64,000 nucleotides of DNA from Halopseudomonas aestusnigri. GTDB lineage: Bacteria; Pseudomonadota; Gammaproteobacteria; Pseudomonadales; Pseudomonadaceae. The translations under genes and the position numbers were made by a program. Numbering within the stretch: the stretch's first letter is position 1; every line of letters begins with the position of its first letter. Location: contig NZ_NBYK01000004.1 in assembly GCF_002197985.1 (NCBI RefSeq), positions 248,001 through 312,000 on the forward strand, given 5' to 3'. The notes under the pieces were generated by a model. It saw only the letters and a list, made by a program, of their open reading frames with translations, was not told the DNA's origin and did not search any database. Positions 31,302 through 44,011 of the stretch are shown one piece after another.

Positions 31302-31320
31302 ACCCCCCATTAGGGGGGGT
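31302..31320. promoter_or_regulatory. C/G palindrome, candidate operator for the DUF1302-DUF1329 operon
   Basis: ACCCCCC, four bases ATTA plus one G, then GGGGGGT form a near-perfect dyad. Its last G (31319) lies 23 bases before TACATT (31343-31348), a plausible -10 box, and the DUF1302 start codon lies at 31432. The same CCCCC-N4-GGGGG dyad occurs at 40750-40764 in matching geometry. Confidence 0.55.
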
Positions 31321-31431
31321 ATAAACACGAAACCTATCGGACTACATTGAGATCCTGCGGCAGAACGGCGTCCCGTCACTGCTGCGAGCCTGGGATCCTC
31401 AATAACAACAAGCGCCCGGCGCGAGGACAAC

Positions 31432-33231
31432 ATGAAGAACATAACAACAAGAACGTTTCTGACCTGCAGCCTCAAACCCATGGTTGTCGCCATCGCAATG
31501 GCTTCCGCACTGCCTGCGCATGCGGTGCGATTCGACATCGGTGAAATCGAAGGCCAATTCGACTCCAGCATTTCCATAGGCTCCAGCTGGGCAACCGCCA
31601 GCCCGGACAAGGACCTGATCTGGGCCAACAACGGTGGCAACGCCAACGCCGCCAACACCGACGACAATCGCCTGAACTTCGACAAGGGCGATGCCTTCTC
31701 GACCATTTTCAAAGGCATCCACGACCTGTCATTGCAATACGGCAGCACCGGCGTCTTCCTGCGCGGCAAATACTGGTACGACTTCGAGCTTAAGGACGGG
31801 CACCAGGATCTGTACGACATCGACGATGACAATCGCAAGACCGCAGCCCAGGCCTCCGGCGTACAGCTGCTCGATGCGTTCCTCTACCACAACTACGCCA
31901 TTGGCGACATGCCTGGCTCGGTCCGCATCGGCAGGCAGGTGGTGAGCTGGGGTGAAAGTACCTTCATTCAGAATGGCATCAACAGCATCAACCCGATCGA
32001 CGCGGCCGCCTTCCGTCGACCCGGCGCGGAGATCAAGGAAGGCCTTATTCCGGTCAACATGCTCTACCTGTCCCAGAGCCTGACTGAAAATCTCGGGATG
32101 GAAGCCTTCTACCAGTTGGAGTGGGATCAGACGGTCATCGACAACTGCGGTACCTTCTTCGCGCCGAGCGATACCCTGGCTGACGGTTGCTACCAGGTCG
32201 GCGTTGGGGGAAGCCAAAACGGTGCCAACGGCGATCCAACCTTTGTCTATGTACCGCGCGCCGGCGACGTAGACGCCAGGGACGACGGACAATTTGGCGT
32301 ATCGTTCCGCTACTACGCCGAGCAGCTGAATCAGACCGAGTTCGGCCTGTACTTCATGAACATTCACAGCCGCCTGCCAACCTATAACACTATCGCAGCT
32401 GGCGGCCAGACGGTCATTGGTGCAGAGCCCAATTCCCAGACCGGGCAAGTTGACGTGGCCCTGTTGGGTAATTATTTCCTCGCCTACCCGGAGGACATCC
32501 GGATCTACGGTGTCAGCTTCCAGACCAACGTTGGCGGTACTGCGCTGTCCGGCGAGCTCAGCTACCGACCAAACCAGCCAGTCCAGATCAGCTCCAACGA
32601 TCTGACCGGTGCAGCCCTCGGTAATGCCGTTACGCCGCTGAACACCAGTGGCCAAGTGCCCGGAGCTGTTCTCGGCGTAGCCATTCCCCCCGGCACCATC
32701 ATTCAGGGCTACAAGCGCTTGCCGGTCACCCAGGCGCAGGTTACGGCGGTCCGTATCTTTGACAACATCCTCGGCGCACGCAGCATGACCGTCATTGGCG
32801 AGGTTGGTTACAACCATGTCAGCGGCATCAAGAAAGGCCTGGATGAACTGCGCTACGGCCGTGACTCACTATATGGCTCCGGGCCGTTGCCATTTGGAGC
32901 GTGCGAGGGCGCACTTAACACAGCCAACCCGTCCGACTGTACCTACGACGGCTTCTACACCAGCAGCTCCTGGGGCTATCGCGCACTGGTCAACATGGAA
33001 TACGAAGGCTTCGCGGGGGTGGCACTCAAGCCCAGCTTCGCGTTTTCACACGATGTTGACGGCACCGGTCCGAACTTTGTTGAGGGCTCCATGGCCGCCA
33101 GCGTCGGCCTGACCGGGGTGTACAACAACAAGTACAACGCCAGCATCAACTACACCAACTTCTTCGGTGGCGACTATAACCCGAACACTGACCGCGACTT
33201 CGTGGCTCTAAGCGTCGGCGTTAACTTCTAA
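31432..33231 (+). CDS. DUF1302 family outer membrane protein
   Basis: This 599-residue protein has a signal peptide (MKNITTRTFL to ASALPAHA) followed by a beta-strand-rich, aromatic and glycine-rich body that fits an outer membrane barrel. Family features are VRFDIGEIEGQFDSSISIGSSWATA at the mature N-terminus and GRQVVSWGESTFIQNGINSINPID in the first third. The C-terminus ends in a phenylalanine (VALSVGVNF), typical of barrels. The gene is followed 18 bases later by DUF1329, its usual partner. Both families occur near hydrophobic-compound or lipid metabolism genes, but no exact role is known. Confidence 0.9.
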   Translation: MKNITTRTFLTCSLKPMVVAIAMASALPAHAVRFDIGEIEGQFDSSISIGSSWATASPDKDLIWANNGGNANAANTDDNRLNFDKGDAFSTIFKGIHDLSLQYGSTGVFLRGKYWYDFELKDGHQDLYDIDDDNRKTAAQASGVQLLDAFLYHNYAIGDMPGSVRIGRQVVSWGESTFIQNGINSINPIDAAAFRRPGAEIKEGLIPVNMLYLSQSLTENLGMEAFYQLEWDQTVIDNCGTFFAPSDTLADGCYQVGVGGSQNGANGDPTFVYVPRAGDVDARDDGQFGVSFRYYAEQLNQTEFGLYFMNIHSRLPTYNTIAAGGQTVIGAEPNSQTGQVDVALLGNYFLAYPEDIRIYGVSFQTNVGGTALSGELSYRPNQPVQISSNDLTGAALGNAVTPLNTSGQVPGAVLGVAIPPGTIIQGYKRLPVTQAQVTAVRIFDNILGARSMTVIGEVGYNHVSGIKKGLDELRYGRDSLYGSGPLPFGACEGALNTANPSDCTYDGFYTSSSWGYRALVNMEYEGFAGVALKPSFAFSHDVDGTGPNFVEGSMAASVGLTGVYNNKYNASINYTNFFGGDYNPNTDRDFVALSVGVNF

Positions 33232-33249
33232 TAAGAAACGGAGCAAGCG

Positions 33250-34623
33250 ATGAAACAGATTCACAAACGATCCCTGCAGATACTCGGCGGCGCCATGCTC
33301 AGCGCCTTGGCGCTGTCTGTCAGCGCAGCCGTCTCTCCGGAAGAGGCTGCCAAGCTGCAAACCACCCTGACCCCGATGGGCGCCGAACGTGCCGGCAACG
33401 CTAGTGGCACCATTCCCGCCTGGACCGGCGGCATGGCAACCGATGCGGCGCCGGTCGACGCCGACGGCTTTTTTGGTGACCCCTTCGCTGGCGAGCAGCC
33501 GCAATACACCATCACTGCGGCGAACATGGATCAGTATGCGGACATGCTGACCGAAGGCCAGAAGGCCATGCTCAGACGCTACCCCGATACCTATCGCATG
33601 CGGGTCTTCCAGACCAACCGCAGCGCTACCGTGCCGCAAGAGGTGTTTGACGCGGTCGCCCGCAACGCCGTCAATACACAACTGGCCGAGGGCGGAAACG
33701 GCCTGGAAAACTTCGACACGGCCTATCCTTTCCCGATTCCGCAAAACGGTGTTGAGGTTATCTGGAACCACATCACCCGCTATCGCGGTGGCAGCTTTAC
33801 CCGCGTTATCGCGCAGGCAACCCCGCAGGCCAATGGCTCGAACACCATGGTGATTCTGCAGGACGCATTCAGCTTTGCGACTGCGCTGACCGATTACGGC
33901 CCGAAGATCTCCGATAACCTGATGTTCTACTTCACCCAGCGCATCCTGTCGCCCTCACGCCTGGCCGGTGACGTGCTGCTGGTGCACGAGAACATCAACC
34001 AGTTCAAGGAGCCGCGCGCCGCATGGATCTACAACGCCGGCCAACGTCGCGTTCGTCGCGCGCCTCAGGTGGCTTACGACGGCCCGGCCTTCAGTGCAGA
34101 TGGCACCCGGGTCTCCGATAACTACGACCTGTATAACGGCTCACCAGACCGTTACGACTGGAAACTGGTTGGCAAGCGTGAACTGCTGATCCCGTACAAC
34201 AACTTCGCTCTTGCCTCACGCGAGTTGAAGTACGATGACATCATCCAGGCGGGCCATATCAACCAGGATCTGGTGCGCTACGAAGTGCACCGCGTCTGGG
34301 AAGTGGAAGCCACCCTCAAGGAAGGCCAGCGTCACGTCTACGCCAAGCGCCACTTCTTTATCGACGAGGATAACTGGCAAGCTGGCGCTATCGACCACTA
34401 CGATGGCCGCGGGGGATTGTGGCGCGTAGCAGAAGCGATGGCCCTGCAACGCTTCGATCTGAAAATCCCCGGATACGCTCTGGAAACGCTGTACGATCTG
34501 CAGAACGGACGCTACATGGCGCTGGGCATGACCAACGAAGAACGCAAGAACTACGACTTCAGCTTCAAGGCGTCGTCTGCCGACTTCACTCCCAACGCAC
34601 TGCGCGCCTCGGGTATCCGCTGA
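33250..34623 (+). CDS. DUF1329 family envelope protein (LolA-like fold family)
   Basis: This 457-residue protein has a signal peptide (to ALSVSA) and the DUF1329 hallmark AKLQTTLTPMGAERAGNASGTIPAWTGG just after it. LMFYFTQRILSPSRLAGDVLLVHE and GDCxxA-like aromatic stretches follow later. The family is predicted to share the lipoprotein-carrier (LolA/LolB) fold and is nearly always paired with DUF1302, as here. GGAG precedes the ATG. A joint job in moving a hydrophobic molecule between membranes is plausible, but this is inference. Confidence 0.9.
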   Translation: MKQIHKRSLQILGGAMLSALALSVSAAVSPEEAAKLQTTLTPMGAERAGNASGTIPAWTGGMATDAAPVDADGFFGDPFAGEQPQYTITAANMDQYADMLTEGQKAMLRRYPDTYRMRVFQTNRSATVPQEVFDAVARNAVNTQLAEGGNGLENFDTAYPFPIPQNGVEVIWNHITRYRGGSFTRVIAQATPQANGSNTMVILQDAFSFATALTDYGPKISDNLMFYFTQRILSPSRLAGDVLLVHENINQFKEPRAAWIYNAGQRRVRRAPQVAYDGPAFSADGTRVSDNYDLYNGSPDRYDWKLVGKRELLIPYNNFALASRELKYDDIIQAGHINQDLVRYEVHRVWEVEATLKEGQRHVYAKRHFFIDEDNWQAGAIDHYDGRGGLWRVAEAMALQRFDLKIPGYALETLYDLQNGRYMALGMTNEERKNYDFSFKASSADFTPNALRASGIR

Positions 34624-34636
34624 TACCCACCCTCTC

Positions 34637-34670
34637 CCCCTGTCGTTTCCGCTGCTCCGGGCGACAGGGG
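34637..34670. terminator. Hairpin downstream of the DUF1329 gene
   Basis: CCCCTGTCG pairs with CGACAGGGG around a 16-base loop, 14 bases after the stop codon. The stem is strong but no T tract follows, so its terminator strength is uncertain. Confidence 0.5.
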
Positions 34671-34683
34671 CCTCCTCTCGGAG

Positions 34684-34838
34684 CTGCAAGCCGCCAGTTT
34701 CAAGCGGCAAGCTGACCATCTCCACCACACCGCTCCTGCTGCCAGCCACCGCTGCCGGCTTTTTGCTTTTGCTTTTGCTTTTGCTTTTACTTGCAGCTTG
34801 CAGCTTGCAGCTTGCAGCTTGCAGCTTGCCGCTTGGGT
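34684..34838. repeat. Inverted CTTGNNG heptamer array (element 1) with GCTTTT repeats
   Basis: The left arm holds four tandem heptamers of the inverted type (ctgcaag, ccgccag, tttcaag, cggcaag) at 34684-34711. The right arm holds five perfect CTTGCAG heptamers at 34790-34824 followed by a diverged CTTGCCG. Between them are four GCTTTT hexamers (34765-34788). The arms are mutually complementary, so a long imperfect hairpin can form. It sits just past the 3' end of the MalT-like regulator gene. Confidence 0.85.
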
Positions 34839-34854
34839 TTATAGCTTGTGGCCG

Positions 34855-37560
34855 CTACGCCTGCTGCACCATCACCGCAGCCTGGGCGCGATTGTCGACC
34901 TTGAGTTTGGCGAAGATGTTCTTCATGTGTGACTTGATCGTCTCGGGTGTGACGTTGAGATCACGCGCTATCTGCTTGTTCGACTTGCCTTCGGCCACCA
35001 ACTGAATAACCTGCCGCTCCTTGACGGTCAGCGTCAGCAACGCACCGCTTCCACCGCCTTCCTCCTCCGGCGTATCCAGCCCAAGCATGTCGGCAAGCTG
35101 AAGCTGCAGATCAGGCGGGCAGTAACGCGCGAACAAAGCGCCAATATCATGCCCGGGCAGGTCGCCAAGCAGACTTACCATTCCTGTGTCCCTGACAATA
35201 CCAACGACCGACTCCAGCAGCGCAGCGGCACTGGCGACACCGCGCTCGCGGCTCAACAGCACGCCAGTAACGATGCCCAGTTCAACGTAATACATCCAGA
35301 TCTCGCTGGTGCGCATTTGCTGCAGCATCGCCAGCGCCTCATCAAGCACTGCGGAATCACAACGTTCCAGATCCAGTGCCAGCCAAAGGCGGGACAATAA
35401 TGCAAAGTAGGCTCGATCAACCCATTGATCGGGCCAATCGAGCCGCGCAAGTTGCTGCAGCATGGCACTGCAGACATTGGCCTCACGCGGCTTGCGCTCA
35501 ATCAGGTGCAGTCTGACCCGCTCCAGCAGCGCACGCGCCTGCAGCCTGGGCCAGCGACGCTCCAATGCCAGCGACTCAAGCTCATCCAGCACCCGCCGAG
35601 CCTGGGCAAAACGCGACTGATGAGCCAGCAGCCGAACCTGCGTCATGCAGGCAAATGCGGTGCATTCGATAAAGCTGCCGGTCTTGATGTAAGGCAACGC
35701 CTCCTGCAGCTTTATGTCTGCTTCTGCATACTCTGCGCGCAGGTAATGACCGAAGGCTCCCAACCCCTTGGGCAATGCCGTCAATACCGGATTGGGCCGA
35801 CGCAAATCCGGGGCGAACAACTCGTCGGCCTGTTCCAGCAGTCCGTCCAGCGTCGCCATGCCCTGAACGATGCGTCCTTGATAGAACTCACTCAGGGCAT
35901 ACAGCGATTTGCGGTAGCACTCATGCAGGAAGTAGCCACCATTTCCCTGCTGCAGCAGTTGGGTCGGTGGCAATGCGTATAACTGGTCCCAGCGGCAGGC
36001 GCGCATGTGCGCGCCACAGAGGATATTGAGCAACACGTTGCGAGCCCACGGGCTGCCAAGGCCTGACCTGATGCAGGCATCGGCAACCGGCGCCGCCAGT
36101 CCATAGCGATCGTCGAGCGCCCAGAGCATGGCCTTGATCGCTTGTACTTCCCAATGCAGCGCCGCCGCGTCCTCTCCCGGCTCAAGCTGCTGAATCTCTG
36201 CCTCCAGCTCCTCGGCAATACGCATGGCCGACGCGTATTCCAGCGCCAGCCCCATGGCCCACGCACGGGTTACCTTGAGTGCCAGCGAGCTGTTACCCGA
36301 CTGCATCTTCCAGCGTTTTTCCATCAGTACCAGGGTGCTGAAGTCACCCTGTTCCATCAGGGTGGTAGCACATTCCTGAATCCATTCTCGCAGTTGCTCC
36401 ACATCACCGCTCAACATCCCAAGCTGGATCGCATCAAACCAGAGCTGGCGCTCGGCGAACCATCGGGCTGCGCCAAGCAGGAACTGCCGCGCCGCAACGT
36501 CATCCCGGGCCAGACAGGCGCTGCGCAGATGCTCGCGAAATAACGGGTGCAGGCTGAACCAGCTGTCCTGCTCGTCCAGCACATTGAGGAATAATTGACG
36601 TCGCCGCAAAAGCTGCAGGAGCGCCTCTGCCGCAGAGTCGCCCAGCAGGCTGCGCAGCAACGGCAGGCTGAACTTCTCCAGCAGCCCAACCGAGCAGAGC
36701 GCTCGACAGGTATCGACATCCAGCTGGCCCAGCAACTCGTCAAACAGATTGCTGATACTGCGTGGCATGTGTCGCCCGGCAACCGGTGGCGGTGCAAGCA
36801 GGTAAGCGCGCAAAGCCGCGATCCAGCCATCAGAGGCCTGCTGGATGCTGCACAGGTCGCCGCCCTGTTCCGGCTGCAGCCCGCCCTTGCGCAGCAGGTC
36901 GCGGGTTTCATCAGCGTCGAACCGCAGCAGCGCCACGTCGATATCCAGTCGATCATCGGCGTAACAATGCTCGACAATCGCCTCCGGCAAATCCTTGCGG
37001 CCGATGAATACCAGATGAACATGCTCGGGAGCCCGCTGAACCAGAAAACGCAGCGCCTCAATCAGCACGTCATCGCCAATGCAGTGGTAATCATCGAAAA
37101 AGATCGTAAGCGGCTGCGCACTCTGCTCCAGGTCGGCGAGCAACAGGCTTGCCAGTGACTGCGCACTGCCTGCCGACGGGCTCACGGCCCGCGCAAGGCA
37201 GCTGCAGGCAACCGAAGGAAGCACATGATTGATGGCAGCACAAAGGTAATACAACAGACGGTGGGCGTTGTTGTCATCGGCATCCAGCGACAACCAGGCA
37301 ACACCCTGACCCAAACTGGAGAGACGCTCGGCCCAAATGCCGGCGAGCGTGGTTTTCCCGTACCCCGGTGGCGCTTCGACAATGGCGACGCGACGCTCGG
37401 TCAGTCGCTCGGCAAGCTGCTCAAGACGTGGACGAGGAAGAACGCCTCGGCCACGACGCGGTGGGGTGATTTTGGTCGTCAGCAACACCGGTAGATCGTT
37501 GCCCCCGTCCTGCCCGGGGGAGGATTGCGGAGCAATCCATTCCACGCGATTCCTGTTCAT
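34855..37560 (-). CDS. MalT-like (LAL) LuxR-family transcriptional regulator
   Basis: This 901-residue protein has the large ATP-binding LuxR architecture. An N-terminal NTPase has Walker A EAPPGYGKTTLAGIW near residue 60 and FFDDYHCIGDD as Walker B. A long helical TPR-like sensor region covers about 350-800. A C-terminal LuxR helix-turn-helix has LTVKERQVIQLVAEGKSNKQIARDL. MalT and AlkS are the model relatives and activate transcription after binding an inducer. The gene is on the same strand as, and 207 bases downstream of, the quinoprotein gene, and faces the DUF1302/1329 operon tail to tail. It is the obvious candidate regulator for this neighbourhood. Confidence 0.92.
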   Translation of the reverse strand: MNRNRVEWIAPQSSPGQDGGNDLPVLLTTKITPPRRGRGVLPRPRLEQLAERLTERRVAIVEAPPGYGKTTLAGIWAERLSSLGQGVAWLSLDADDNNAHRLLYYLCAAINHVLPSVACSCLARAVSPSAGSAQSLASLLLADLEQSAQPLTIFFDDYHCIGDDVLIEALRFLVQRAPEHVHLVFIGRKDLPEAIVEHCYADDRLDIDVALLRFDADETRDLLRKGGLQPEQGGDLCSIQQASDGWIAALRAYLLAPPPVAGRHMPRSISNLFDELLGQLDVDTCRALCSVGLLEKFSLPLLRSLLGDSAAEALLQLLRRRQLFLNVLDEQDSWFSLHPLFREHLRSACLARDDVAARQFLLGAARWFAERQLWFDAIQLGMLSGDVEQLREWIQECATTLMEQGDFSTLVLMEKRWKMQSGNSSLALKVTRAWAMGLALEYASAMRIAEELEAEIQQLEPGEDAAALHWEVQAIKAMLWALDDRYGLAAPVADACIRSGLGSPWARNVLLNILCGAHMRACRWDQLYALPPTQLLQQGNGGYFLHECYRKSLYALSEFYQGRIVQGMATLDGLLEQADELFAPDLRRPNPVLTALPKGLGAFGHYLRAEYAEADIKLQEALPYIKTGSFIECTAFACMTQVRLLAHQSRFAQARRVLDELESLALERRWPRLQARALLERVRLHLIERKPREANVCSAMLQQLARLDWPDQWVDRAYFALLSRLWLALDLERCDSAVLDEALAMLQQMRTSEIWMYYVELGIVTGVLLSRERGVASAAALLESVVGIVRDTGMVSLLGDLPGHDIGALFARYCPPDLQLQLADMLGLDTPEEEGGGSGALLTLTVKERQVIQLVAEGKSNKQIARDLNVTPETIKSHMKNIFAKLKVDNRAQAAVMVQQA

Positions 37561-37767
37561 GAATTCGATCCATGCCGAGCACGGGCTGCCTGCGACAGCC
37601 TCTTTTTGTTATTCCACTACCTACCCTAGCAGAGCGGCAGCACAGCGCACGGCAACAGCGCCAAGAGAAGGGGTGACCGCCATTGCCGGCCACCCCATCA
37701 TACGAACGGCACTGTTTAGAGTAAATACTCAATCAGCATCACCAGTCACAGACTGAACGCCAACAGC

Positions 37768-39840
37768 TCACTCGGTTTCGACCTGAGTGGTGGACAAGGC
37801 ACTCTCGTATTCACGCTGCATGACGTACAGCTTGATCTGGCGGGCCTGCTCTGCTGACAGGCTGTCCGCAAACGAGGCCATACCCTTGCCGCTGAACGCA
37901 CCCTGCAAAACGATGGCTTCCCAGGCCTCGCGAACGGCGTCGGAAGAATGACGCAGATCCGGGATGACGCCGCCGCCAACTGCTCCAGCGCCGTGACAGA
38001 CCATGCAGTAAGTGGCATACAGGTCTGCCCCTGCGCTGATGTCAGTGGCGGCAGCGACCACCGGCTGCGGGACCCGATCGACCTGCTGCTGCAGCGGTGC
38101 CGGCGACAACGCGGCCTTGCCACCCAGCTTGAACACCAGCATGCGACTGACGTTCTGCGTGCCGACAGCAACGGCTGCATCGCCACCAAACAGCGCCGCA
38201 GCGCCGCCCCATCCTGCCATCAGGGCAATGTACTGTTCGCCGTTGTGACGATAGGTCATGGGCGCGGCAATGACGCCGGTCTGTGTAGAAAATTGCCAAA
38301 GCGGCTGCCCCGCGTCCGCACTGTAGGCCTCAAGTTGACCTGCCGAGGTACCCTGAAAAACCAGATTACCTGCGGTCACCAGAGTGCCACCGTTCCAATG
38401 GTTGGGCCGCTCCACCCGCCAGGCTGGTGCCTGCTTGACCGGGTCCCAGGCAATCAGGGCACCGGTTGCATACTCGCGCGGAAGCCCCCGGTTTTCCAGG
38501 CCGGCTCCGGTGTTGAAGGCATTACGTACAACGAAGTTTCCGCCCTCGTTGGCATAGGTCGCAGGTATCTCCTGATAGGGCAGATACACCAGTCCGGTGA
38601 GCGGGCTATAGGACATCGAATGCCAGTTGTGTGCGCCGAAAGGGCTTGGCCAGATCAGTGCCGGCTCGGTTTCGTAACGCGCATTTGGCGCCTCGACAGG
38701 ACGCCCGGTTGCCATGTCAATACGCTCTGCCCAGGTCACCTTGCCGAACTTCTCGGCAGACAGCAGCTCTCCGGTCGCCCGGTCAAGCACATAGAAAAAG
38801 CCGTTCTTCGGGGCCTGCATGATGACCTGACGCGGCTTGCCGTCGATCTCCAACTCGGCAAGGGTCAATTGCTGGGTTGCGGTATAGTCCCAGCTATCCC
38901 CCGGGGTAGTCTGATAGTGCCATACCAGCTCGCCTGTCTCGGGGCGCAGGGCCAGGATGGATGACAGATACAGATTGTCGCCGCCGCCAGGGCTGCGAAC
39001 CTCGCGATTCCACGGAGAGCCATTGCCGGTACCCACATACAACAGATTCAATGCCGGATCATAGGCCATGCTGTCCCAGGCGGTGCCGCCGCCACCGAGA
39101 TCCCAGCGGGTTCTCTCGCTCCAGGTCGGCAGCGCCTTTTCCAGCGCAGGCGAGGCTTGCGGCCCCTGGGCCGGGTCTGCCGGTACGGTGTAGAAACGCC
39201 AGCGCATTTCACCGGTCGCCGCATCATAGGCCGAGAAATAGCCGCGCACACCAAACTCGGCGCCACCGTTGCCGATCAGGACCATATCCTTGAGTACACG
39301 GGGCGCGCCGGTAATGGTGTAGGGCTTCTCCCTGTCGACTGTTTCCCGGGTCCAGACCGGCTTACCGGTTTTGGCGTCCAACGCAATCAGCCTGCCGTCG
39401 AGCGTACCGACGTATACCTTGCCCTTCCACAGTGCGACGCCGCGATTGACCGCGTCACAGCATGCCTGCCGCCCCCGTGCACGGTCTACGCCCGGATCAT
39501 AGCTCCACAGAATGCTGCCGGTCTCGGCATCCACCGCCATTACTCGACTCCAGGAGAGCGACGTGTACAGCACGCCATCGTGATACAGCGGTGTCGCTTC
39601 CAGCCCGCGGGTATTGTCCAGATCAATGGACCACGCCAGCCCAAGCTGATCAACATTGCCGGTGTTGATCTGCTGCAGCGGGCTGAAGCGCTGCTGCGAC
39701 CAGGTCCGATCATAGCTCAACCACTCGCTGCCATCGGTTTCTACCGTCAGCATCGCGGCGTTATCCACTGTAACCGCCGGTGCGGCAGTCGCCAGCACAC
39801 ATAATGACGCCACCAGGGGAAAGGCAATCAACTTCTTCAT
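37768..39840 (-). CDS. PQQ-dependent quinohaemoprotein alcohol dehydrogenase (type II)
   Basis: This 690-residue periplasmic enzyme has a signal peptide (to ATAAPA) and an eight-bladed propeller with repeated tryptophan-docking motifs. The vicinal disulfide Cys127-Cys128 in RQACCDAVNRG is typical of PQQ alcohol dehydrogenases. A C-terminal cytochrome c domain has haem site CMVCH at about residues 612-616. It would oxidise an alcohol and pass electrons through its own haem to the respiratory chain. I chose ATG 39840 because GAAGAG is eight bases upstream. The alpha/beta hydrolase gene ends 53 bases upstream and probably shares the transcript. PQQ synthesis genes are not in this window; the substrate is unknown. 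Confidence 0.92.
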   Translation of the reverse strand: MKKLIAFPLVASLCVLATAAPAVTVDNAAMLTVETDGSEWLSYDRTWSQQRFSPLQQINTGNVDQLGLAWSIDLDNTRGLEATPLYHDGVLYTSLSWSRVMAVDAETGSILWSYDPGVDRARGRQACCDAVNRGVALWKGKVYVGTLDGRLIALDAKTGKPVWTRETVDREKPYTITGAPRVLKDMVLIGNGGAEFGVRGYFSAYDAATGEMRWRFYTVPADPAQGPQASPALEKALPTWSERTRWDLGGGGTAWDSMAYDPALNLLYVGTGNGSPWNREVRSPGGGDNLYLSSILALRPETGELVWHYQTTPGDSWDYTATQQLTLAELEIDGKPRQVIMQAPKNGFFYVLDRATGELLSAEKFGKVTWAERIDMATGRPVEAPNARYETEPALIWPSPFGAHNWHSMSYSPLTGLVYLPYQEIPATYANEGGNFVVRNAFNTGAGLENRGLPREYATGALIAWDPVKQAPAWRVERPNHWNGGTLVTAGNLVFQGTSAGQLEAYSADAGQPLWQFSTQTGVIAAPMTYRHNGEQYIALMAGWGGAAALFGGDAAVAVGTQNVSRMLVFKLGGKAALSPAPLQQQVDRVPQPVVAAATDISAGADLYATYCMVCHGAGAVGGGVIPDLRHSSDAVREAWEAIVLQGAFSGKGMASFADSLSAEQARQIKLYVMQREYESALSTTQVETE

Positions 39841-39893
39841 GGGCATGACTCTTCTGTTGTCGTTATTGTTGTCGTAGATCTGTTTATTGACGT

Positions 39894-40688
39894 TCAGACG
39901 GCATCGGCAGCGAACTGGCGAATCGCATCGGCAACCTGTGCCGGCTGCTCCAGCGCCAGCGAGTGACCGGCCGCCGAAATCACCCTGCACTGCCCGCGCC
40001 CACTGCGTTCGACTATCTGCTCGGATAGCGCCGTGCTGTAGGCATGGTCTTCAGCGCCAGCCAGGACCAGTAGCGGCACACGCAGGCCGGCAAGTTCATC
40101 GAGTACGGAGGCGCGATGGATGACCTCCCTGGCAGCCACGCCGATATCCGGCCCCAACTTGCGCATATGCGTACGCCACCGGGCGCACAGCGCCGCGTGC
40201 TCGGGGCTGCGCAGGGTCTGATCCCCGAACATGATGTACATCAGGGTATCGACCTGATCGGCTGCACCTTCGGCAGCCAGCTGATTGACCAGCGGTTCGA
40301 ACTCGGCCAGTTGATGCTCCCGATCGGCGCTGCTGCCCATCACTATGCACCCCGCCAGACGTTCCGGATAACGGGCAGCAAGGCGCAGCACAACGAAGCC
40401 CCCCATGGAGTTGCCTGCAACGTAACAGGGCGCAAGGTCAAGAAGATCGATGAGAGCTGCCACATCCTCGGTGAGCGAATCCATGTCGAGCGACCCGCCG
40501 CGACTACTCAAACCCTGACCACGGTGATCGTAAGCAATGATCTCGAAATACGGGTGCAGCAACTCGATCAGCGGCTCAAACATCCGCCAGTCAAAAAACA
40601 GCGAATGGCTCAGAACCAGAACCGGCTTGCCCGGCTGGGGGAAGCGCTCGAAGTGCAGACGAACGTTATTTACCGTCAGGTAAGCCAT
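39894..40688 (-). CDS. Alpha/beta hydrolase, cytoplasmic
   Basis: This 264-residue single-domain hydrolase has the triad visible: nucleophile Ser94 in AGNSMGGFV, acid in LAGAEDHAYS, and His in SAAGHSLALE. The N-terminal YDHRGQGLSSRGG resembles 3-oxoadipate enol-lactonase and related esterases. There is no signal peptide. It is the first gene of a two-gene operon with the quinoprotein dehydrogenase, which suggests it cleaves an ester or lactone related to the dehydrogenase substrate. The CCCCC-N4-GGGGG palindrome is 62 bases upstream of the start codon. Confidence 0.88.
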   Translation of the reverse strand: MAYLTVNNVRLHFERFPQPGKPVLVLSHSLFFDWRMFEPLIELLHPYFEIIAYDHRGQGLSSRGGSLDMDSLTEDVAALIDLLDLAPCYVAGNSMGGFVVLRLAARYPERLAGCIVMGSSADREHQLAEFEPLVNQLAAEGAADQVDTLMYIMFGDQTLRSPEHAALCARWRTHMRKLGPDIGVAAREVIHRASVLDELAGLRVPLLVLAGAEDHAYSTALSEQIVERSGRGQCRVISAAGHSLALEQPAQVADAIRQFAADAV

Positions 40689-40749
40689 GAACAGACCCCG
40701 CGTTGAATGTCGGAGCCTGATGCTAGGGTCAGGAACCCTGCAGGTTCAG

Positions 40750-40764
40750 CCCCCCTGTTGGGGG
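40750..40764. promoter_or_regulatory. C/G palindrome, candidate operator for the hydrolase-quinoprotein operon
   Basis: CCCCCC, TGTT, GGGGG forms a dyad like the one at 31302-31320. Read on the minus strand it is followed after 24 bases by TAGCAT (40725-40720), a plausible -10 box, and then by the hydrolase start codon at 40688. The distance equals that at the DUF1302 promoter within one base. Confidence 0.55.
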
Positions 40765-40800: not shown

Positions 40801-41014
40801 CCGCAAGCCACAAGCTTCAAGCAAAAACAAGCTGGAAGCCAGGAGTTTGCGTTTGTGGTTGAGGAAAGAGCAAGACCTTACCGCCTGTTGCGCGGCAGAC
40901 CCTGACTTGCAGCTCGGGCAGCACCCGATGGAAGCCAAGCTGCCACACCAAACCCAGGCTTCTGGCTTCTGGCTTGAAGCTTGCGGCTTGCGGCTTGTGG
41001 CTTGTGGCTTGTGG
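40801..41014. repeat. Inverted CTTGNNG heptamer array (element 2)
   Basis: The left arm has inverted heptamers ccgcaag, ccacaag, cttcaag (40801-40821) and then a ctggaag unit. The right arm has eight phased heptamers at 40959-41014: two cttctgg, cttgaag, two cttgcgg, three cttgtgg. The arms can pair into a long imperfect hairpin. This is the same architecture and heptamer as element 1 at 34684-34838. Confidence 0.85.
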
Positions 41015-41024
41015 CTTTCAGGTC

Positions 41025-41076: not shown

Positions 41077-41775
41077 TCAACCGCACTTGCTGTCGCCGCA
41101 GGCCAGGCAGGTCAGGCAGCCGTCCATCTGGATCGCGGCCTTGGTGTGGCACTTGCCGCACATCTGCGAACCTTCAGGATAGGCGTTGGCGCTGTCGTCG
41201 CAGTCGGCTTCGGTCTGCGCCTGGGGCTTGAGATTGGCGAACTCGGCGCGCTTCTGCTCAAGGTACGCCTGCTGGTGATCATCCATCTCGTCCTTGATCA
41301 TGCCGATGCGCTTGAGGTGCTGGTCCAGCACGTCGCCGATTTCAGCGACAAGCGAGGGGCTCCAGCGGCCACCGCGCTTCATATAACCACCCTTGGGGTC
41401 AAACACGCTGCGCAATTCTTCAACCAGGAAGGTGCAGTCACCACCCTTGCGGAACACAGCAGAGATAATCAGCGTCAGGGCTGAAATCCACTGATAGTGT
41501 TCCATGTTCTTCGAGTTGATGAAGATTTCGAAGGGACGACGACTCTCGTGGTCGCTGCCGGAGTTGAGCACGACGTCATTGATGGTGACATAGATCGCGT
41601 GCTCCGAGGTCGGAGTCTTGATCTTGTAGGTCGAGCCCTCAAGAAACTCGGGGCGCTTGAGCTTCTCGTGCATTTCCTCGATCGCCGGAGCAGCCTTGGC
41701 TTCCGGGGCCTTGGCCGGTTCATCGGGTTTGACTACAGCATAGTCGACAATCTTGCTGTTAATCTTCAGTGCCAT
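41077..41775 (-). CDS. nrdJb: Class II ribonucleotide reductase C-terminal subunit NrdJb
   Basis: This 232-residue protein corresponds to the C-terminal part of adenosylcobalamin-dependent ribonucleotide reductase, encoded separately as in P. aeruginosa. It carries the STYKIKTPTSEHAIYVTINDV segment and a cysteine-rich C-terminus, CGKC followed by CLTCLACGDSKCG, which binds zinc and supplies the thiols that re-reduce the active site. ATG 41775 is supported by GAGGAAG about ten bases upstream. It starts 82 bases after the nrdJa stop and is transcribed with it. Confidence 0.93.
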   Translation of the reverse strand: MALKINSKIVDYAVVKPDEPAKAPEAKAAPAIEEMHEKLKRPEFLEGSTYKIKTPTSEHAIYVTINDVVLNSGSDHESRRPFEIFINSKNMEHYQWISALTLIISAVFRKGGDCTFLVEELRSVFDPKGGYMKRGGRWSPSLVAEIGDVLDQHLKRIGMIKDEMDDHQQAYLEQKRAEFANLKPQAQTEADCDDSANAYPEGSQMCGKCHTKAAIQMDGCLTCLACGDSKCG

Positions 41776-41857
41776 GTCTTTCACTTCCTCGCCACGCCTG
41801 GGCGCGGCCGGTTCATCAGGTTTGCGAACTACCGGGTGCCGCCGCAGCGGCACGGGT

Positions 41858-44011
41858 TCAGAATTTGCCGTAGTAGCCTTCTTTCAGGGCGTCATACAGG
41901 TTGGCGGCGGTGTGCAGCTCGCCATCATACTCGATCTCGTCGCCACCCTTGGCTTCGATGAAGGTGCCATCGTCCAGCTTGAAGCGGTAGGTGGTGTTGG
42001 CCAGATCCTGTTCCTTGACCAGTACGCCCTGGAATGCTTCCGGGTTGAAACGGAAGGTCGTGCAACCCTTCAGCCCCTTGTGGAAGGCGTACATGTAGAT
42101 GTCCTTGAAGGACTCATACGGGTAGTCGGTCGGCACGTTCGCCGTCTTGGAGATCGACGAGTCAATCCACTTCTGGGCCGCGGCCTGGACGTCAACGTGC
42201 TGAGTCGGGGACACGTCATCAGCGGCGATGAAGTACTCCGGCAGGTTGCGCGACTCGGCGTCCATGCTCGGCAGCGCATCAGCATTGATGAAATGACGGT
42301 ACGCCAGCAGTTCAAAGCTGAACACGTCAACTTTCTCTTTCGACTTCTTGCCTTCGCGGATCACATTGCGGAAATAGTGGTGCGCGAAGCTCGGCTCGAT
42401 ACCGTTGGAAGCATTATTGGCCAGCGACAGCGAGATAGTACCGGTCGGTGCGATAGAGCTGTGGTGAGTAAAGCGCGAACCTTTCTCGGCCAGTGCAGCG
42501 GCCAGCTCGGCATCTTCGCCTGCCACCTGCTGCATATAGCGGCTGTACTTGGCCCACAGCACCTTGCCAGCGACCTTGTCACCAGCCTTGATACCGTCAG
42601 CAACCATTTCCGGACGCTTGGCCAGCATCGCCTCGGTCACCACAAACTCTTCGTCCATGATCGGCGCGGCGCCCTTTTCTTCTGCCAGCGCCAGACCGGT
42701 ACGCCAGCCCTGCATGGCCATCTCGCGGGACACCTGCTCGGTGAACTCGAGGGAGGCGGCCTCACCGTATTTCATGCGCAGCATGGTCATGGCCGAGCCA
42801 AGGCCCAGGAAGCCCATACCGTGACGGCGCTTGCGGTAGATCTCGTTGCGCTGCTGCTCCAGCGGCAGGCCGTTGATCTCGACCACGTTGTCCAGCATAC
42901 GGGTGAAGATGTCGACAACGCGACGGTACTCGTCCCAGTCAAACCGGGCCTTTTCAGTGAACGGATCACGAACGAACAGCGTCAGGTTGATCGAACCCAG
43001 CAGGCAGGCGCCATAGGGCGGCAGCGGCTGTTCACCACAGGGGTTGGTTGCGCGAATCTCCTCGCAGAACCAGTTGTTGTTCATCTCGTTGACACGGTCA
43101 ATCAGGATGAAGCCAGGCTCGGCGAAGTCGTAGGTGGAACTCATGATCATGTCCCAGATACGACGCGCTTTCATGGTGCGGAAGATACGGCAGGCAACCA
43201 GGCCATCCGCGCGGCTGACATAGCGCTCGTTGCTCGGCCACTCGCGCCAGATCACCTGTTCCGCATCGTTGACGTCAACGCCATCGGCTTCCATCTCGGC
43301 CTGATTCAGCGGGAACGCCAGCTGCCAGTCGGCATCGGCCTCAACCGCCTTCATGAACTCTTCAGTGATCAGCAATGACAGGTTGAACTGGCGCAGACGG
43401 CCGCCTTCACGCTTGGCGCGAATAAAGTCCATCACGTCCGGATGACCGACATCGAATGTCGCCATCTGGGCTCCACGACGGCCACCGGCAGAGGATACGG
43501 TGAAGCACATCTTGTCGTAGATATCCATAAACGACAGCGGGCCGGAGGTATAGGCACCGGCGCCGGAGACGTAGGCGCCCTTCGGCCGCAGGGTGGAGAA
43601 CTCGTAACCGATACCGCAACCGGCCTTGAGAGTCAGACCGGCTTCGTGCAGCTTGGCGAGAATGTCATCCATCGAATCGCCGATGGTCGCCGACACGGTG
43701 CAGTTGATCGTCGAGGTCGCCGGTTTGTGCTCAAGTGCCCCGGCGTTGGAGGTAATACGGCCAGCCGGAATCGCGCCGTGACGCAGTGCCCAAAGAAACT
43801 TTTCGTACCACTCCTCGCGCAGCTCCGGTGCTTCCACCTCGGACAGGGCACGAGCGACACGCTGAAACGTCTCGTCAACCGACTTGTCGATGGCCTTGCC
43901 ATCCTTGGTCTTGAGGCGGTATTTGGTATCCCAAATGTCTTCTGACGCGGGCTGCAAAGGGATGCTGGTCACCACATTATGCAGGCGCTGCACCTTGGCT
44001 GTTTGACTCAT
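41858..44011 (-). CDS. nrdJa: Class II (B12-dependent) ribonucleotide reductase large part NrdJa
   Basis: This 717-residue protein makes the catalytic barrel of the oxygen-independent, adenosylcobalamin-dependent ribonucleotide reductase. Landmarks include GRITSNAGA, NCTVSATIGDSMDDI, the active-site loop ATNPCGEQPLPPYGACLLGSINL and APTGTISL. It reduces ribonucleotides for DNA synthesis and works with NrdJb, which supplies the C-terminal cysteines. AGGAGA precedes the ATG. The promoter carries two NrdR-like boxes. The split is a lineage trait, not a frameshift, since each part has its own start and ribosome-binding site. Confidence 0.95.
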   Translation of the reverse strand: MSQTAKVQRLHNVVTSIPLQPASEDIWDTKYRLKTKDGKAIDKSVDETFQRVARALSEVEAPELREEWYEKFLWALRHGAIPAGRITSNAGALEHKPATSTINCTVSATIGDSMDDILAKLHEAGLTLKAGCGIGYEFSTLRPKGAYVSGAGAYTSGPLSFMDIYDKMCFTVSSAGGRRGAQMATFDVGHPDVMDFIRAKREGGRLRQFNLSLLITEEFMKAVEADADWQLAFPLNQAEMEADGVDVNDAEQVIWREWPSNERYVSRADGLVACRIFRTMKARRIWDMIMSSTYDFAEPGFILIDRVNEMNNNWFCEEIRATNPCGEQPLPPYGACLLGSINLTLFVRDPFTEKARFDWDEYRRVVDIFTRMLDNVVEINGLPLEQQRNEIYRKRRHGMGFLGLGSAMTMLRMKYGEAASLEFTEQVSREMAMQGWRTGLALAEEKGAAPIMDEEFVVTEAMLAKRPEMVADGIKAGDKVAGKVLWAKYSRYMQQVAGEDAELAAALAEKGSRFTHHSSIAPTGTISLSLANNASNGIEPSFAHHYFRNVIREGKKSKEKVDVFSFELLAYRHFINADALPSMDAESRNLPEYFIAADDVSPTQHVDVQAAAQKWIDSSISKTANVPTDYPYESFKDIYMYAFHKGLKGCTTFRFNPEAFQGVLVKEQDLANTTYRFKLDDGTFIEAKGGDEIEYDGELHTAANLYDALKEGYYGKF

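Follow-up and report, generated by a model that had tools for sequence, protein, structure and literature searches.

The closest described case for the locus analyzed here is AlkS of Pseudomonas putida GPo1, a LuxR/MalT-family alkane activator which, in the portion of the source consulted, uses a 20-bp inverted-repeat operator (PMC8784404). The same portion states that operators of the AlkS type adjoin the -35, that expression is negligible without the operator, and that a site resembling an AlkS operator in front of alkB2 is non-functional (PMC8784404), so that homology alone is no proof of function. The sites of MalT are given, in the excerpt available, as decanucleotides in direct repeat (PMC6099782). 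Two partially available sources concern relatives of the genes under study: PP_0765 and PP_0766 of P. putida are needed for the use of Tween 20 and have been suggested to serve in transport (PMC10866462), and ameB, a DUF1329 gene of Castellaniella, is reported to be essential for growth on monoterpenes (PMC6394551).

Results

Organization of the locus

The window, i.e., the whole stretch of 64,000 nucleotides of Halopseudomonas aestusnigri DNA that was analyzed, contains a LAL regulator gene lying between two operons, each of which is preceded by a C/G dyad. The features are as follows.

31303 to 31319, + strand: dyad 1, proposed LAL operator, C6-ATTA-G7
31343 to 31348, + strand: candidate -10 of the DUF1302 promoter, TACATT, at 30 nt from the first G
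31401 to 31411, + strand: AATAACAACAA in the DUF1302 leader, overlapping AANAANAA matches
31432 to 33231, + strand: DUF1302 protein, 599 aa (Pfam PF06980, E 1e-170)
33250 to 34623, + strand: DUF1329 protein, 457 aa (Pfam PF07044, E 2e-151)
34855 to 37560, - strand: LAL (MalT-like, LuxR-family) regulator, 901 aa, with a Walker A-like motif and a C-terminal GerE HTH
37768 to 39990, - strand: quinohemoprotein (PQQ and cytochrome c) alcohol dehydrogenase, best solved relative 1KV9 (1044 bits)
39894 to 40688, - strand: alpha/beta hydrolase, 264 aa (Pfam PF00561)
40725 to 40720, - strand: candidate -10 of the hydrolase/dehydrogenase promoter, TAGCAT, at 30 nt from the first G
40750 to 40764, - strand: dyad 2, proposed LAL operator, C6-TGTT-G5 on the + strand and C5-AACA-G6 towards the hydrolase

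Dyad 1 is upstream of the DUF1302-DUF1329 pair and dyad 2, read leftward, is upstream of the hydrolase and the PQQ/cytochrome c dehydrogenase. The listed start of the dehydrogenase overlaps the hydrolase gene, so translation may begin further downstream. The DUF1302 protein would, by analogy with PP_0765 and AmeA, form an outer-membrane barrel. The locus is flanked by tandem 7-base repeats, CTTGCAG x6.6 at 34790-34835 just downstream of the LAL gene and, on the other flank, an intergenic GGCTTGT x8.7 at 40957-41017. Adjoining the locus at 41077-44011, a B12-dependent ribonucleotide reductase occurs as two proteins, the main chain and, apart from it, one with a TSCPD domain.

The regulator has a Walker A-like EAPPGYGKTT at residues 62-71 of its 901, an AAA_22 match at residues 55-193 (E 1e-5) that at 26.3 bits is below the cut-off of 27, and a GerE HTH (PF00196) at residues 843-898 (E 1e-20). 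The MalT chain 8bob matches residues 26-411 with an E value of 3e-35. The protein was not assigned as MalT itself because it scores 271 bits against a cut-off of 537 for the NCBIfam MalT equivalog. A PHROGs scan of the regulator returned HTH matches only.

The exact dyad is rare in the window and the genome

An earlier note on this DNA had described near-identical C/G palindromes in the two intergenic regions. Both are present, dyad 2 at the reported 40750-40764, while dyad 1 occupies 31303-31319 and not 31302-31320. The note had also expected such a dyad to be rare by chance and had seen no third copy by eye, which agrees with the count of two exact CCCCC-N4-GGGGG motifs in the window versus 0.08 expected, a count reached by 1 of 100 shuffles. 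With one mismatch tolerated the window is unremarkable, since the 5 matches found, versus 3.72 expected, were equalled by 33 of 100 shuffles.

Across the genome (3.83 Mb, 30 contigs) there are 4 exact copies of CCCCC-N4-GGGGG. The oriented form, CCCCCANNAGGGGG, is matched perfectly at 2 places, namely dyads 1 and 2, and with one mismatch at 8; these scans covered a 4-base center and at most one mismatch. TAnnnT at the proper distance was found at 0 of the 8 one-mismatch matches, and a -10-like hexamer at that distance is likewise absent from the genome's two other exact dyads (L001 and L004). Both of these sit in stop-free frames; the frame at L001 has 150 codons, and the copy at L004 lies at the start of a frame that, judged by eye, resembles ATP synthase epsilon. 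Among exact and one-mismatch oriented dyads, the genome thus shows no site beyond these two that combines the dyad with the -10 spacing, the combination suggested earlier as a check on the regulon.

Dyads and -10 hexamers are kept in Halopseudomonas

The LAL protein was searched in 37 genomes of the genus, of which 16 (own included) hold a homologue with 43-100% identity, the one at the H. oceani locus having 72%. We compared the window's own locus with 15 others, and the second LAL copy of G013 was also fetched. The dyad is present upstream of DUF1302 in 16/16 LAL-bearing loci. At the other end it precedes the hydrolase, or the dehydrogenase itself, in 15/15 loci holding that end. These counts are not independent events because the genomes are related. 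L043 was left out of the dehydrogenase-side count as a contig end cuts the locus. The dyads are present nonetheless where the HerA match is missing (L044-L050) and where the hydrolase match is missing (L041, L042, and L046-L050). At L045:6125-6914 (G035), the hydrolase matches in two pieces with slightly shifted frames and may be broken or mis-sequenced. No dyad was seen at the LAL gene's own start in the Halopseudomonas loci compared.

On the DUF1302 side, mean pairwise identity was 97% for the 14-nt dyad and 87% for the -10, as compared to 40% for the spacer and 31% for the DNA upstream of the dyad. The corresponding values on the dehydrogenase side were 90%, 86%, 34%, and 32%. The sites are thus kept amid poorly conserved DNA. 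Dyads that were not conserved in orthologous promoters would have spoken against the earlier proposal; they are kept in this genus and, in other genera, are found beside a relative of the same LAL.

The -10 boxes are where the earlier note had placed them, with 23 bases (TACATT) and 24 bases (TAGCAT) from the last G to the hexamer. TAnnnT follows 29-30 nt downstream of the dyad's first G at 31/31 genus sites and reads TAGNNTC in 28; the other three are TACATTG (the window's DUF1302 promoter), TAGGATA, and TACATTC. The DUF1302 -10 is TAGAGTC or TAGTGTC in the 15 relatives, and the window's own TACATT deviates from TAGNNTC.

We also looked at the leaders, using stretches that include the first codons. 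A AANAANAA match is present in 16/16 DUF1302 leaders, and in the leaders of the dehydrogenase operon it is present in 7/7 without the hydrolase and 0/8 with it. These runs look like Hfq/Crc sites, and a Crc/Hfq layer of control is conceivable.

A fixed promoter architecture accompanies the dyad

Neither promoter region of the window contains a consensus sigma-70 -35/-10 pair. The dyad, whose flanks are weakly T/A-rich, ends at the expected start of the -35. An inverted repeat of about 20 bp adjoining the -35, as in AlkS-type promoters, is therefore found here, although the window's -35 itself is not recognizable.

The architecture was examined in 25 LAL-cluster loci (the window, L036-L051, L121-L125, and L156-L158), which contain 54 C/G dyads 13 bases or longer. 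In 43 of these a TAnnnT begins 28-31 nt past the first G on one strand, and ten of the 11 that lack it are not exact C5-N4-G5. Among exact cluster dyads, 39/40 have TAnnnT at 28-31 nt, as compared to a chance rate of 3.2% at random positions. The lone exact miss, L158:13525 (G152), lies upstream of a DUF1254/DUF1214 gene. When 42 sites are compared, conservation falls on C5, a center with A in first (35/42) and last (33/42) position, G5-6, and TAGNNTC, and an A stands nine bases after the first G in 33/42; many sites carry six C. The distance from the first G to the -10 is 29 in 28 sites, 30 in 10, 28 in 3, and 31 in 1.

Exact dyads outside the clusters have a different surrounding. TAnnnT was found at 0/17 of them (16 of the 17 non-cluster sites in 12 genus genomes, and one from G246). 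Each of those examined overlaps a stop-free frame of 100 codons or more, which counts for little as evidence in GC-rich DNA. A further 11 distinct non-cluster exact dyads came from four outside genomes (L159 included); 10 are without the hexamer and one, L142, has TAGCATG at 29. The L142 dyad, at a contig end in G182, precedes a gene that shares 52% identity with the second LAL of L124 and 47% with that of L156. Because it precedes a relative of the second LALs, we counted it as a target after the fact. That an unplaced dyad, chosen by its -10 alone, fronts a second LAL gene gives the architecture some predictive power.

The dyad follows one LAL subfamily

Of 398 genomes of the family, 21 gave a LAL match at an E value of 1e-100 or below, namely the 16 of the genus and, at 38-42% identity, G152, G159, G167, G182, and G246; there was also a second copy in G013. 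In a class-level sample of 369 genomes (cut-off 1e-80), the LAL was found in the own genome alone. The six distant LAL loci, whose LALs were measured at 36-40% identity, all carry a dyad. At L121, L122, L123, and L125 it adjoins the LAL gene and points away from it to an acyl-CoA dehydrogenase, and at L051 it points away to an SDR-like gene. Distant dyads are also found at DUF1302 or DUF1329 (L124, L125, L156, and L157), and DUF1254/DUF1214 genes are further targets by position in L156 and L158. Some distant dyads are imperfect: the center is 5 bases long at L123 and at the L125 site on the side of the LAL, and one side has only four C at L051. G167 has 3 exact dyads genome-wide, none of them more than about 17 kb away from the LAL.

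A dyad promoter faces a second LAL gene at L124:14737-17309, L156:10161-12746, and L142:30-1543 (in G159, G167, and G182), which suggests a regulator cascade in these genomes. The listed start of the second LAL of L156 is upstream of the -10, so the true start must be later.

An exact dyad was found in 0/15 paralog stretches (L126-L140), of which 14 have a LAL of 23-28% identity and L139 has DUF1329 only. In 12 of the 16 LAL-bearing genus genomes, a scan gave 41 exact dyads versus 20 for the reversed control; 24 are at the two promoters and 17 elsewhere. The 21 LAL-less genus genomes gave 29 exact dyads versus 35 for the control. The non-promoter background is equal with and without the LAL, at 1.4 exact dyads per genome. 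In the LAL-less genomes the nearest dyad, among the matches listed and as compared by eye, is about 28 kb from a DUF1329 match. The starts of contigs C44 and C51 of G246 have CCCCCGTTCGGGGG every 127 bases, apparently a tandem array and not a LAL promoter.

The helix that we take to be the recognition helix of GerE-type HTHs reads TPETIKSHMK in 18, APETIKSHMK in 3, and TPETVKSYMK in 1 of the 22 dyad-linked LALs. Where readable, the dyad-less paralogs have SLHTVKSHARRIN, SLHTVKTHARRIN, SLSTVKTHINN or STSTIKTHINN. The second LALs of L124 and L156 have a different helix, SLHTVKSHAQRIN.

Discussion

Taken together, the comparison of sequences indicates that the two dyads are real, conserved sites that are very probably bound by the LAL encoded between them. 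The earlier proposal that the two operons form one regulon of this LAL is supported by the kept dyads, the fixed spacing, and the co-occurrence with the LAL subfamily. We consider it highly likely that the dyads are LAL operators and that LAL activates both operons via a -35-less promoter, and we infer both binding and activation from the genomic data. In our working model, an inducer and ATP would bind the LAL protein first, and its GerE-type HTH would then bind the inverted repeat of roughly 18 bp. Because the repeat ends at the would-be -35 start, we propose that LAL brings RNA polymerase, in a class II-like manner, to a promoter that lacks a -35 and has a TAGNNTC-like -10. With the hexamer taken to end at -7, the dyad would be centered near -44. 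The DUF1302-DUF1329 and hydrolase-quinohemoprotein dehydrogenase operons would thereby be switched on together.

The dyad could instead be the site of another regulator, perhaps encoded elsewhere, with the LAL gene a mere neighbor. The assignment to LAL is drawn from comparison, and three clusters have a second LAL-type gene behind the dyad; however, every dyad-bearing cluster has this LAL subfamily across varied targets and genera, the LAL-less genus genomes show background dyads only, and the second LALs of L124 and L156 differ in their helix. We therefore regard this explanation as unlikely. It also seems improbable that LAL binds the dyads as a repressor and is released by the inducer. The position of the site taken alone is compatible with repression, and a LAL repressor, SCO6993, is reported in Streptomyces in the part of the source available (PMC9628970), but a site that ends at the would-be -35, lacks a consensus -35, and keeps a fixed distance to the -10 is what class II activation would lead one to expect, and AlkS, the closest described case, activates according to the text consulted.

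Two further explanations concern the DNA itself. A perfect C/G hairpin is possible, so the dyad might act as a nucleic-acid structure (terminator, attenuator, or hairpin) and not as an operator, which we judge to be very improbable, as the dyad is upstream of the predicted start, and hence outside that transcript, and its distance to the -10 is conserved in a promoter-like manner. Terminator, attenuator, and RNA-element readings were rejected because the single terminator-like call in the two promoter regions is away from the dyads and no Rfam family matches the 10.1-kb stretch at gathering scores. The ordinary one-mismatch count in the window is in keeping with chance C/G runs in a GC-rich genome, but exact copies are rare and the dyad is in every comparable promoter while the flanking DNA is poorly conserved, which leaves this explanation with a negligible probability.

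Because an alcohol dehydrogenase and a hydrolase are present here and acyl-CoA enzymes elsewhere, the substrate of the system would be lipophilic and of alcohol or ester type, the genes of the regulon may handle oily alcohols or esters, and the inducer would be alcohol- or ester-like. In a broader scenario, to which we give an even chance, a portable promoter module, made up of the dyad, a fixed gap, and TAGNNTC, spread through Pseudomonadaceae together with one LAL subfamily, wiring different lipid, alcohol, and CoA genes and even second LALs into a single inducible circuit of which DUF1302/DUF1329 is the shared uptake/export part.

For a LAL with no described target in the literature searched, the analysis predicts an operator, a promoter architecture, and a regulon; that literature, which covered few subscription journals and some sources in part, contained no description of the operator or the regulon. 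The poorly understood DUF1302/DUF1329 pair is linked to acyl-CoA enzymes in other genera and, in Halopseudomonas, to a quinohemoprotein alcohol dehydrogenase together with a hydrolase, which makes substrate and inducer directly testable.

Comparison with known systems

The best solved relative of the target dehydrogenase, 1KV9, is a type II quinohemoprotein alcohol dehydrogenase that we take to be ADH-IIB of P. putida HK5. The literature matches listed contained nothing on the regulation of this enzyme, and an earlier study reportedly dealt with quinoprotein promoters in P. putida HK5. PP_0765/PP_0766 of P. putida and AmeA/AmeB of Castellaniella belong to the same DUF1302/DUF1329 families; they differ in that no LAL regulator or operator is described for them in the portions of text consulted.

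The earlier note had drawn an analogy to MalT. The likeness to MalT of Escherichia coli holds for the kind and size of the regulator, whereas MalT-type direct repeats were rejected as a model because the sites of the window are inverted repeats, in which the dyad resembles AlkS as described in the text available. AlkS differs from the present system in having other target genes and in having sites at its own promoter as well, where none was seen at the LAL gene start in the genus. It shares with this locus, as far as the consulted text describes it, a MalT-related regulator and an inverted-repeat operator beside the -35, the comparison covering the size and position of the operator. Given the inverted repeat beside the -35 here and the direct repeats of MalT, AlkS is the closer model.
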